Source of the DNA: an uncultured Wenzhouxiangella sp.
Lineage (GTDB): Bacteria; Pseudomonadota; Gammaproteobacteria; Xanthomonadales; Wenzhouxiangellaceae
Assembly: GCA_913057195.1 (NCBI GenBank)
Contig: CAJXNL010000018.1
Coordinates: 1 to 41,607 of the forward strand
Direction: 5' to 3'
Length of the DNA: 41,607 bases
The notes beneath the pieces were generated by a model. It searched no databases. It was given only the letters and a program-made list of their open reading frames with translations, and was not told where the DNA came from. Both the position numbers and the translations under genes were made by a program. Numbering within the stretch: position 1 is the stretch's first letter; every line of letters begins with the position of its first letter. Below are positions 19,748 through 23,224 of this stretch, piece after piece.

Positions 19748-20452
19748 ATGGCTAAGCTGTCCATACCCCACCACGACCGTTTGATCTTCGCCTTGGATGT
19801 GCCTGATTTGGCGCGGGCGCGTGAATTGATTTCAACGCTCGGAGATTCGGTTCAGTTCTATAAACTCGGACTCGAGTTTTTCTTAAGTGGGCACTACTTT
19901 GAGCTTGTGCATGAACTCAAAGCCTCGGGTAAGAAAGTATTTGCTGACCTCAAATTATTTGATATTCCGCCCACCGTGGGCCGTGCGGTCGCTCAGCTGG
20001 CCCAGCATGAGGTGGATTTTGTGACCGTCCACGGCCAGGACGCCATGCTCCAACAGGCGGTTGCCCATGCTGGTGATATGGGCGTGTTGGCGGTGACTGC
20101 ACTGACCAGCCTCGATCGAGGGGATTTGGATGATTTGGGTTTTGATTGCGACATTGAAGCGTTGGTGCTGTCTCGGGCGCGGCGGGCACTGGCGTTGGGC
20201 TGTCGCGGCGTCATCTCCTCAGGACTCGAAGTCAGCGCGCTGCGCGACTCGGTGGGTGAGGCCCTGACCGTGGTCTGCCCCGGCATTCGCCCCGTGGACA
20301 ACGTGGATGATCAAAAACGGACCATGACCGCCAGCCAAGCGCTTGCAGCAGGCGCCGATTACATTGTTGTCGGACGCCCAATTCGCGATGCCCATGACCC
20401 GCGCCAGGCCGCCGAGCGCATCCAAGAAGAGATTTTGGAATACTTCAATTGA
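19748..20452 (+). CDS. pyrF: Orotidine 5'-phosphate decarboxylase
   Basis: Converts OMP to UMP, directly after the PyrE reaction. The 234-residue TIM-barrel protein has the active-site segment ADLKLFDIPPTV (catalytic Asp/Lys), VTVHGQDAM, the phosphate-binding CPGIRP and YIVVGRPI near the C-terminus. The ATG at 19748 is chosen because GGAG lies 5 bases upstream; an in-frame TTG at 19733 contains that site. It probably ends the fis-purH-purD-uvrD-pyrF unit, with the terminator at 20566-20595 as the first good stop signal, 114 bases downstream. Confidence 0.95.
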   Translation: MAKLSIPHHDRLIFALDVPDLARARELISTLGDSVQFYKLGLEFFLSGHYFELVHELKASGKKVFADLKLFDIPPTVGRAVAQLAQHEVDFVTVHGQDAMLQQAVAHAGDMGVLAVTALTSLDRGDLDDLGFDCDIEALVLSRARRALALGCRGVISSGLEVSALRDSVGEALTVVCPGIRPVDNVDDQKRTMTASQALAAGADYIVVGRPIRDAHDPRQAAERIQEEILEYFN

Positions 20453-20483
20453 ATCAATGCTTTATAGGATTCTTATTAGATGG

Positions 20484-20512
20484 TTGATAAATAGAACGTC
20501 CCAAGTTAATAT
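20484..20512 (+). promoter_or_regulatory. Sigma70 promoter for candidate small RNA
   Basis: TTGATA (20484-20489, five of six matches to consensus), a 17-bp spacer and TAATAT (20507-20512, four of six). It lies 31 bases after the pyrF stop and 54 bases before a perfect terminator, so it cannot drive pyrF and would produce only a short RNA unless termination fails. Confidence 0.5.
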
Positions 20513-20518
20513 AACGCC

Positions 20519-20595
20519 TGAGATTTGCTGAGTGATGCATCTCTCGCTCGCTAGTACGACGATTGGGCGAACCTTCCGGGGTTCGCCATTTTTTT
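20519..20595 (+). ncRNA. Candidate small RNA, about 77 nt
   Basis: Bounded by the promoter at 20484-20512 and the intrinsic terminator ending at 20595. The predicted transcript could fold into a 5' hairpin, GAGTGA (20530 region) pairing with TCGCTC through one T-G wobble, followed by a single-stranded linker and the terminator stem with a U-tail. This is the usual build of Hfq-dependent small RNAs. It matches no family that I recognise, and no conservation data are available; it may instead be only the 3' end of the pyrF message. Confidence 0.35.
20566..20595 (+). terminator. Rho-independent terminator
   Basis: A perfect 8-bp stem GGCGAACC (20566-20573) / GGTTCGCC (20580-20587), a 6-nt loop and a run of seven T (20589-20595). 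It ends transcription from the uvrD-pyrF unit and from the internal promoter at 20484, isolating plsB. Confidence 0.92.
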
Positions 20596-20692
20596 ACGGC
20601 CTTTTCACCGTCCAGCCGCCGCCCGGTGGCTTTCGCCCAAAGTGGTAAACTGCTGGGCCAATTCACGGATCCGAATACGGTCAGCCGCCAGC

Positions 20693-23224
20693 ATGCACAC
20701 CAGTGAGCATTCAACCGCCGAGTCAATGACGGTCATTGAACGCGCCCGTCAGCTCAGCCTGCGTGCACTGCGCCGCGTGCTGCACCTTTGGGTGGACAGC
20801 ACCACCATTCCTGAAGATCTCAATGAGTGGGGCATCGATGATAAGGCGCCTATTTTCTACGTCTTGGATGTTTATGCGCTGTCATCGGTGTTAATTGTGG
20901 ATGAAGTGCTCGCCAAGCGCGGCCTCAAACTCGCCTCCGATCCGTTTTCGGCTGCCGGGGCCCATCGGCCCAGAAGTTTTGGGGCCAACCGCCGTTATCG
21001 AGGCGTCTTGGTTAGAACGCGTAAGCGTCAACGCCACTCAAGCCAACTTAAAGCGCTGATCGATGAGGTTGATCCTGATCGGTTGCAGGGGGATCAAGAC
21101 ATCCAGATCGTCCCCGTTTCTGTCCTGATTGGGCGCGCGCCTGACCAAACGTCAGGGATTTTTAAGGTGCTTTTTTCTGAAAATTGGAGCACCGGGGGCC
21201 GGCTTCGTCGCCTCATCGGCACCTGGATTCATGGGCGACATACCTTGGTTCAATTCGGCCAACCTCTCAAACTGAGCTCACTTTTCGCTCAGACCGAAGC
21301 CCGCGATAAAGCCCTGGCCAGAATCTCTCGATTCAGTCGGGTCTATTTCAAACGTGTTCGAAGTTCTGCCATTGGCCCCGACCGATCACACTTGAACACT
21401 TTGATTGATGAGCTCGTTCAAAGTGAGCCGGTTGCCGCCGCCATCGAAGCCAAAGTTCGCCGGGACAACATCACCGAGGAAAAAGCCCGACGTCTGGCGT
21501 ACGGGTACGCTCGGGAGATCGCCGCCAACTATTCATACACGTTCGTCATGGTGGCCAATAAGATTCTGACCTGGTTTTTGTACCGTATTTTTCGGGGCGT
21601 TGAGGTTAAGCACTTTAAGTCTTTTCGCCAACTGGCGCCTGGTTATGAGGTGGTGTATGTCCCTTGCCACCGCAGCCACATCGACTATCTTCTGTTGTCG
21701 TACATTCTTTACCATCGCGGACTCGTGCCACCGCATGTGGCGGCGGGCGTCAACCTCAATTTACCCATTGTGGGCGCCTTAATTCGACGCGGTGGCGGGT
21801 TTTTTCTCCGCCGATCTTTCCGCTCAAAACCGTTATATGCCGCGGTCTTTAACCAATATGTGGCCATGATTTTGTCTAAAGGGGTCGCGCTGGAGTACTT
21901 CATTGAGGGCGGGCGCTCCCGGACTGGGCGACTGCTTCCACCCAAGGCGGGGATGTTGTCGATGACTGTGCGTGCATTCTTGCGCCAGCAGCAGCGCCCA
22001 GTGTTGTTCCAACCTGTCTCGATTGCCTATGAGCGTTTGGCTGAGGGCAATGCCTACCTCGCTGAACTTTCAGGACAACAAAAAAAGCCTGAGTCCTTAA
22101 GCGATTTTAGAAACGTCCTCAATATCATTCGCAAGAACTACGGAGAAGTCACCGTCAGCTTTGGGGCGCCATTGAGACTGACCGATCTTTTAGATGCCCA
22201 TGCACCCGATTGGGCTGAAGGCCATTATGAGCCCGACTCACGACCAGAATGGCTCGGGCGCCTGGTCGATGATTTGGCCGAGCAGATTTTAGTCAACATC
22301 AACAAAGCCGCACACGCCAACCCCATTGCGTTGCTCGCTGTGGCGCTGTTGGCCAGCCCGCGGCAGGCCATGGACGAGAACGACCTCAAGGCCATGCTGT
22401 CAACGCTCAAAACGCTTTTGGAAGCCCCCATCTACTCAGACCGCATCACGGTGACCGAACAGTCGGCGGAAGACATGATCCGCTATGGTTTGGCGCTTGA
22501 AGTCATTCAACGCCATCGCCACGATGGCGGCGCAATCATCAAAACAGACGAACAGACCGCGGTCTTGCTCACCTATTTCAAAAACAATTTGGCGCATGTC
22601 ATGGCGTTAAGTGCCTGGTTGGCGTGCTGCTATCTCAACTTGCGCCGTTTAAAACGCTCGCGACTGCATGAGCTGACCCGCCGGGTTTACCCGTTTTTGC
22701 AAAAAGAGCTGTTTTTGCCATGGTCTGGCGACGACCTCTCAACAGCGGTCGACCAAACGACCGACAAGTTGATCGAGCTTGGGCTATTGCAAGAAGACAA
22801 CGGCCATGTGATCCGCGAGCCGGGCGGAGAGACCAGCAGTCACCGCCTGAGAATGCTTGCCCACAGCATGCGTCAAACCCTGGAGCGTTATTTCATTGTG
22901 GTGGCGGTACTGACCAAAAATGGTCCAGGCGCTTTATCCAAGCAGCAGCTTGAAAAGCTGTGCGCGCAGTGCGCTCAGAGGGTCGCGGCGCTCCATCCAC
23001 TGGTGACGCCAGAGTTTCACGACCGCACCCTGTTTGGCCAATTCATCGCCACCTTATTTGAGGAATCACTGCTGCGTCGGGACAACGATGGGTTGCTTCA
23101 TTTTGGATCAGCGTTGGATGCGCTCAGTCGTGATGCACGCTTGGTACTTGACCGAGAAATTCATTACACCATCGTCCAGTCGGCCCCACTCGTTGGCGAG
23201 CTGCCCGCGGGCCAAGACAACTGA
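20693..23224 (+). CDS. plsB: Glycerol-3-phosphate acyltransferase
   Basis: Membrane-associated enzyme that adds the first acyl chain to glycerol-3-phosphate in phospholipid synthesis. Up to 843 residues. The acyltransferase core has the catalytic HX4D box (His326, Asp331 in CHRSHIDYLL), GGFFLRRSF, YFIEGGRSRTGRLLPPK and a PVSIAYERL block; long N- and C-terminal regions are as in E. coli PlsB (807 residues). The start is uncertain: ATG 20693 is annotated, ATG 20726 gives 832 residues and an N-terminus closer to the family length. Both lack a strong ribosome-binding site. It appears monocistronic and converges on the DUF465 gene 11 bases away. Confidence 0.94.
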   Translation: MHTSEHSTAESMTVIERARQLSLRALRRVLHLWVDSTTIPEDLNEWGIDDKAPIFYVLDVYALSSVLIVDEVLAKRGLKLASDPFSAAGAHRPRSFGANRRYRGVLVRTRKRQRHSSQLKALIDEVDPDRLQGDQDIQIVPVSVLIGRAPDQTSGIFKVLFSENWSTGGRLRRLIGTWIHGRHTLVQFGQPLKLSSLFAQTEARDKALARISRFSRVYFKRVRSSAIGPDRSHLNTLIDELVQSEPVAAAIEAKVRRDNITEEKARRLAYGYAREIAANYSYTFVMVANKILTWFLYRIFRGVEVKHFKSFRQLAPGYEVVYVPCHRSHIDYLLLSYILYHRGLVPPHVAAGVNLNLPIVGALIRRGGGFFLRRSFRSKPLYAAVFNQYVAMILSKGVALEYFIEGGRSRTGRLLPPKAGMLSMTVRAFLRQQQRPVLFQPVSIAYERLAEGNAYLAELSGQQKKPESLSDFRNVLNIIRKNYGEVTVSFGAPLRLTDLLDAHAPDWAEGHYEPDSRPEWLGRLVDDLAEQILVNINKAAHANPIALLAVALLASPRQAMDENDLKAMLSTLKTLLEAPIYSDRITVTEQSAEDMIRYGLALEVIQRHRHDGGAIIKTDEQTAVLLTYFKNNLAHVMALSAWLACCYLNLRRLKRSRLHELTRRVYPFLQKELFLPWSGDDLSTAVDQTTDKLIELGLLQEDNGHVIREPGGETSSHRLRMLAHSMRQTLERYFIVVAVLTKNGPGALSKQQLEKLCAQCAQRVAALHPLVTPEFHDRTLFGQFIATLFEESLLRRDNDGLLHFGSALDALSRDARLVLDREIHYTIVQSAPLVGELPAGQDN

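Follow-up and report, generated by a model that had tools for sequence, protein, structure and literature searches.

The stretch of DNA analysed here (the window; 41,607 nucleotides) is contig C18 of G000, a Wenzhouxiangellaceae genome of 1.78 Mb that is 98.9% complete. On its plus strand, pyrF (19748-20452, stop codon at 20450-20452) precedes plsB (20693-23224); both names are those of the earlier note, that of pyrF without a Pfam check, and both starts were chosen by us (ATG 19748 for pyrF, for which the ORF list gives a frame from TTG 19733, and ATG 20693 for plsB). A candidate small RNA (sRNA) lies on the same strand between them, with pyrF as its conserved upstream and plsB as its downstream neighbour. 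Its sigma-70 type promoter (20484-20512), of a layout common to relatives, was found exactly where the earlier note had placed it (TTGATA at 20484-20489, a 17-bp spacer and TAATAT at 20507-20512), and the stretch of about 77 bases that the note had described between promoter and T-run end corresponds to a putative RNA of ~77 nt at 20519-20595. We set the start near 20519 because, in two loci, the first position of the Rfam sX14 model falls 6-8 nt past the −10 element as we read it. Within the RNA, we recovered the possible 5′ hairpin as a predicted fold at 20520-20545 (GAGA/UCUC plus UGC/GCA), followed by a pyrimidine-rich linker at 20540-20565 (CUCUCGCUCGCUAG then GUACGACGAUUG), which is partly unpaired in the prediction and may be the pairing region. 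The intrinsic terminator (20566-20595) is also as described, with a stem-loop at 20566-20587 (9 pairs including one G-U, loop of 4) and T7 at 20589-20595. The claim that the stretch holds no ORF stood in substance but not to the letter, as two frames do exist: a minus-strand frame of 90 aa with a TTG start in the ORF list (20454-20726), which we take to be spurious, and a plus-strand frame opened by ATG 20535 that runs through the terminator.

In this single sequence, the promoter and terminator features are near chance, and the case rests on comparison. Between 19000 and 22500 there were 3 promoter-like sites vs 1.4 (sd 1.1) in shuffles and 4 terminator-like sites vs 4.6, and the fold of the 77 nt had a z of −2.1 that became −0.05 once the terminator was left out. 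When the pyrF-plsB gap was searched as DNA against the family, two strong matches came up, in G042 (81% over window positions 20476-20596; E 1.2e-26) and G041 (77% over 20462-20595; E 1.6e-22), both of which stop at the T-run. Between the window and its two nearest relatives, the RNA was 83% and the promoter 72-79% identical, the spacer to pyrF 55-58% and the sequence past the T-run 39-45%; with all three pairs aligned, the spacer reached 55-61%, the promoter 72-79%, the RNA 77-83% and the sequence after the T-run 39-45%. The whole of pyrF was 71% identical between the window and G042 (locus L112), with 41% identity at third codon positions (45% where the residue is the same); the RNA is therefore held more tightly than the adjoining gene. 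A lack of conservation beyond the terminator had been named beforehand as a result that would tell against an sRNA; on examination the promoter and the RNA body proved to be conserved too.

We then sought the same arrangement across the family. PyrF was detected in 42 of the 43 family genomes sampled (G000 among them), and 40 loci could be examined downstream, ten of them with less than 500 nt; left out were G039 (no PyrF match), G040 (a PyrF fragment) and G027 (contig end 13 nt past the stop). A unit was counted when a promoter with a TTG −35, 8 of 12 matches and a spacer of 16-19 lay in the first 500 nt after pyrF and was followed, 60-190 nt past the −10, by T5 after a fold of −12 kcal/mol or lower. 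Such a unit was present in 35/40 loci, all at the place described, vs a mean of 0.14/40 (maximum 1) in 50 rounds of dinucleotide shuffles; this is a post hoc count, the criterion having been loosened after the sequences were inspected, in the same way for shuffles and outside loci. A stricter first criterion, which asked for 9 of 12 promoter matches and an almost perfect stem within the first 420 nt, was passed by 12/40 loci vs 0 in 20 shuffle rounds. The unit was absent from 4/40 loci (L131, L141, L145 and L147), and a fifth, L146, fails the criterion with a unit visible by eye. At L131 (G017), pyrF almost abuts plsB with no sRNA unit in between, and near neighbours in the PyrF tree have one, an apparent natural loss. 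Among 80 pyrF loci of a wider genome set, the unit occurred in 11 of the 13 whose PyrF shows 68% identity or more and in 0/66 whose PyrF shows 65% or less (L021 was dropped as short). Five of those 13 (L002-L005, L029) were already among the family genomes counted, and of the other eight, which we take to be other Lysobacterales, 7/8 passed. A chance origin of the unit was rejected by the shuffles and the 66 outside loci. What the comparison shows is that promoter, RNA, hairpin and terminator are all conserved and that their position is fixed.

Conserved paired bases were looked for, as the earlier note had proposed, in homologous pyrF-linked RNAs, using the 18 RNAs of the window's genus (subgroups A, B and C; the labels A-E were assigned by eye). 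The pairs of the 5′ hairpin were kept: 88.8% of cells held standard pairs, against 18-60% with the partner slid by 1-3 columns, and three pairs had changed on both sides, with columns 15/26 showing A-U, G-C and G-U, all common. The number of paired cells was reached by 1 of 500 column shuffles (shuffle mean 85.7%), the double-change pairs by 7 of 500 and the pair types by 164 of 500. These figures give moderate support for pairing that is kept through sequence changes, and only moderate because the structure was drawn from the same, related sequences. From 12 sequences, RNAalifold recovered the 5′ hairpin together with some of the terminator; from the 27-sequence alignment A3 it gave no consensus structure.

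The interior of the RNA differs between subgroups, which two-base indels separate within the RNA alignment. By motif count, an A/C-rich stretch (e.g. CAACAATCAACAAC) occurs in 30/41 RNAs outside subgroup A and in 0/3 inside it. A pyrimidine-rich motif leading into CCGG (e.g. TCCTCTCCGG) was found in D (4/4), E (2/5), the rest of the family (7/9) and other Lysobacterales (8/8), and in 0/18 RNAs of subgroups A, B and C. A CCGG-type middle hairpin between linker and terminator is present in C (6/6), E (5/5), the rest of the family (7/9) and other Lysobacterales (8/8); the motif count found none in the window, L112, L113 and 9/9 members of subgroup B, and 0/4 in D, though all four carry TCCTCTCCGG. 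The linker CUCUCGCUCG recurs in L134 and L137 of subgroup C. Read in this way, the predicted window form, consisting of hairpin, linker and terminator, is the shortest seen in the genus. The subgroup A genomes (G000, G041, G042) measure 1.7-2.1 Mb vs 2.3-4.2 Mb for most of the genus, a comparison in which G041 is 84% complete and other incomplete genomes are also smaller. The three subgroup A sequences branch off at the base of the family in the PyrF tree, at a fork that is not resolved, and the tree does not show them to be a clade.

A covariance model of the 18 RNAs of subgroups A, B and C, window included (R1), when run against 398 order genomes at E 0.01, matched once in each of its own 18 training genomes and marked no other site. 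In 34 other pyrF loci, R1 had 20 matches in 131 kb, 18 at the pyrF site, and 13 of these 18 scored above 15.1 bits, the highest value reached in 342 kb of outside loci (the nulls for R1 and for R2, below, used 44 of 67 outside loci). Since R1 contains the window, we built a held-out model without subgroup A (R3), which had 12 matches in 77.5 kb, 12/12 at the pyrF site and the window included. It scored L112 at E 0.028 and the window at 12.5 bits (E 0.54), the latter being the only match over 95 kb comprising the window and 18 other loci. By this model the window alone is a weak match, its weight coming from position and from L112.

The earlier note had also held that the sequence fits no RNA family. 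At Rfam cut-offs this remained so: no family matched in the window or in the loci of 19 relatives, and RF02233, the family of sX14/Xoo3 (cut-off 80 bits), gave nothing at E<=10 in 20440-20720 and nothing in G000 at E<=0.01. It did not hold in the wider sense, as sX14/Xoo3 appears to be the counterpart after pyrF. Two other Rfam families were considered and set aside: Xoo2 (RF02241), a weak full-length match of 14.8 bits (<45) whose locus L174 showed no recognisable pyrF on reading its listed ORFs, and sbrA (RF01489), with 21.6 bits (<45) and an alignment mainly to the terminator. Across the 398 order genomes, the sX14 model matched in 63 at E 0.01, in 15 above cut-off and in none of the window's family, and it had no match in the 12 Wenzhouxiangellaceae pyrF loci tested. 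In 18 of the best 20 sX14 loci, PyrF ends within ~250 nt upstream on the same strand; L210 has PyrF about 1.2 kb upstream and L209 has no PyrF in the stretch examined. The window RNA shares this placement, just 3′ of pyrF on the same strand. Family f2, which we take to be Xanthomonadaceae with Xanthomonas because its genus g42 has RF02233 above cut-off, has a similar layout 3′ of pyrF. There, the RNA after pyrF is RF02233 at 117 bits in L185 and L187 (cut-off 80), and sX14 ranks first among Rfam families at the pyrF site of L180, L186 and L182, although below cut-off (E 2e-5 to 0.03); in L183 it came at E 1.5 behind another family, and L184 had no sX14 match.

A model built from 11 f2 RNAs (R2) provided a search in the opposite direction. 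In 171 kb of loci from Wenzhouxiangellaceae and other Lysobacterales it had 17 matches, of which 11 fell at the pyrF site, including every one of the nine strongest (E 0.025-0.8); eight of these nine exceeded 14.9 bits, the best in 342 kb of outside loci. Among the matches listed for R2, none fell in subgroup A (L111-L113), and R1 likewise had no match at the pyrF site in eight f2 loci (L180-L187). Four loci (L006, L009, L010 and L130) were marked at the pyrF site by both models, R2's score for L130 being just below the null. In the structure drawn automatically for R2, the 5′ arm is paired to the middle hairpin, which is probably an error. We treat the cross-matches between R1 and R2 as support, not proof, because terminators attract both models and, in these loci, a large share of the terminators are the very ones at issue.

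It is conceivable, if unlikely, that the window holds an independent sRNA gene that shares no descent with sX14/Xoo3, two sRNAs having settled after pyrF separately. The failure of the sX14 model to reach either the window or any family genome would fit such a history, as would the distance between the PyrF proteins of the two families (~47-54% identical, on long branches) and the differences in their other neighbour genes: within ~1.5 kb of pyrF in f2, plsB was found in 0/14 loci and uvrD in 1/14 (L181, 37.5%). Against it, both RNAs lie on the same side of pyrF, on the same strand, with the same order of parts and at a similar distance; the nine best R2 matches converge on the pyrF site, eight above the outside null; and R1 reaches the four loci that R2 also marks. 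Shared descent of the window RNA and sX14/Xoo3 is thus supported, not proven, by these comparisons. On balance, we lean towards sX14/Xoo3 being an order-wide, pyrF-anchored sRNA gene with promoter and place fixed and an RNA body that turns over fast, of which the models catch fragments; in the window's small-genome group it would have been cut to hairpin, linker and terminator, lacking two elements that its relatives carry in some form, the A/C-rich stretch and the middle hairpin. As an observation apart, the branches between the PyrF of f2 and that of the window's family are very long, which could mean that PyrF evolved fast or that one of the two was replaced.

We consider it improbable that the locus is only the pyrF terminator, that is, a 3′ UTR with a hairpin next to which a promoter-like sequence stands by coincidence. 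The stem-loop is indeed the first T-run terminator after pyrF, and neither promoter-like nor terminator-like sites stand out from chance when a single sequence is taken alone. Yet a terminator by itself would leave the conservation of promoter and RNA body, which are kept as well as the terminator, and that of the 5′ hairpin through sequence changes to be accounted for. In the related genomes L118 and L122 the whole sRNA unit stays intact although an insert separates its promoter from pyrF. In addition, sRNA-Xoo3 is described as an RNA in its own right (~80-93 nt) whose 5′ end was mapped by RACE (PMC3039613). The insert of L118 and L122 has inverted ends (CCTGATTAGC..GCTAATCAGG in L118), lies in the first ~250 nt after pyrF and has the look of a small mobile element or a repeat. 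With promoter, RNA body and terminator conserved at one place and the hairpin pairs kept, the sequence comparisons indicate that the earlier note was very probably right to see an independent sRNA gene here. The sRNA terminator probably ends pyrF transcripts as well, because it is the first of its kind 3′ of pyrF.

A leader or attenuator controlling plsB is more doubtful still: the RNA lies on the same strand directly 5′ of plsB, but plsB seems to be served by a promoter of its own past the sRNA terminator, with TGGTAAACT (20643-20651, plus strand) as a probable extended −10 picked out and judged conserved by eye, and the layout after pyrF stays in the f2 loci, 14/14 of which have no plsB match within ~1.5 kb. 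By eye, an extended −10 like TGGTAAACT recurs just 5′ of plsB at a similar place in many relatives. Least probable of all is a small-protein gene, for which ATG 20535 does open a frame, since this frame reads on through the terminator, a stop comes immediately after the aligned ATG (ATGTAA or ATGTGA) in members of subgroup B such as L117, L119, L121 and L128, and two-base indels separate the subgroups.

We therefore favour, at a probability of about three in four, a trans-acting, Hfq-assisted sRNA with its own promoter that is a diverged, shortened counterpart of sX14/Xoo3. Transcription would begin at the sigma-70 promoter ~67 nt past the pyrF stop codon, and the intrinsic terminator with its seven U would end a transcript of ~77 nt, its start set as above. 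A short 5′ hairpin would cap the front of the RNA, and the U-tailed terminator would offer the usual landing site of Hfq. At the level of sequence and conservation, the window RNA has the own promoter and the Rho-independent terminator with a long U tail that such an RNA calls for. An hfq gene is present in G000 (C3:106151-106336; E 8.6e-28) and in 42/43 family genomes, G000 included, and together with the Hfq dependence of the presumed counterpart sX14/Xoo3 this indirectly supports Hfq assistance of the window RNA by analogy. The linker might pair with target mRNAs, most likely near ribosome-binding sites, and so change their translation or stability, although its role as the pairing region is a guess from conservation. 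Linker-complement sites with at most one mismatch numbered 0+2, 2+1 and 1+9 (forward+reverse) in three genomes and were not above a reversed-pattern control (8+7, 4+10 and 9+9), and the two perfect sites are the sRNA gene itself. In a duplex scan of 32 window ORF starts vs 200 shuffled RNAs, the best p was 0.05 with none below, and the starts of pyrF and plsB gave p 0.79-0.90. Transcription, Hfq binding, target pairing and common descent with sX14 are what we infer from the conserved arrangement.

In a limited literature search, we found no paper on a Wenzhouxiangella sRNA or on an sRNA with pyrF and plsB. The window RNA is of a known kind, a conserved bacterial sRNA; what is new is the breadth of its occurrence and the link to sX14/Xoo3. 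If descent is shared, a regulator known from a crop-pathogen genus becomes the common property of an entire order, many of whose members are environmental bacteria, and harmless relatives could serve in the search for its targets. The pyrF site would also make a good test case for how fast the body of an sRNA changes while promoter and position stay fixed.

Some sRNAs form a class made from their own promoter in the 3′ region of a gene. The window RNA resembles them in that its promoter lies between stop codon and terminator, and in that the terminator would be shared, here with pyrF, which would make it a 3′-region sRNA with its own promoter. The closest comparison is with sX14/Xoo3 (RF02233). 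In the sections of the Xoo3 study used here, Xoo3 is a Northern-detected RNA of 93 nt, about 80 on the blot, with a 5′ end determined by RACE; it peaks in early growth and falls without hfq (PMC3039613). According to the same sections, 26 identified proteins changed when it was deleted (oxidation-reduction proteins decreased, one ATP-synthesis protein increased), and it was present in the Xanthomonas strains compared and absent from two Xylella strains (PMC3039613, 2011, Table 3); their text on Xoo3 does not mention pyrF. For sX14, a strong reduction in an hfq mutant and its restoration by hfq are described in the part of PMC3771888 consulted. Like the window RNA, sX14/Xoo3 sits next to pyrF on the same strand with a promoter-like site, a 5′ hairpin, a linker and a U-tailed terminator, in a length range of 77-93 nt and a host with Hfq. 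The two differ in that the window has neither an RF02233 match nor the middle hairpin, that sX14-family loci have no plsB neighbour, and that Hfq dependence belongs to what is shown for sX14/Xoo3 in Xanthomonas only. Another likeness is to sX13 of Xanthomonas, also an sRNA of the Xanthomonadales, with C-rich motifs of a kind that stand before a hairpin in many pyrF-linked relatives, not in the window; unlike the RNA proposed here, sX13 is described in the same part of PMC3771888 as acting without Hfq and as having three stems with C-rich loops.
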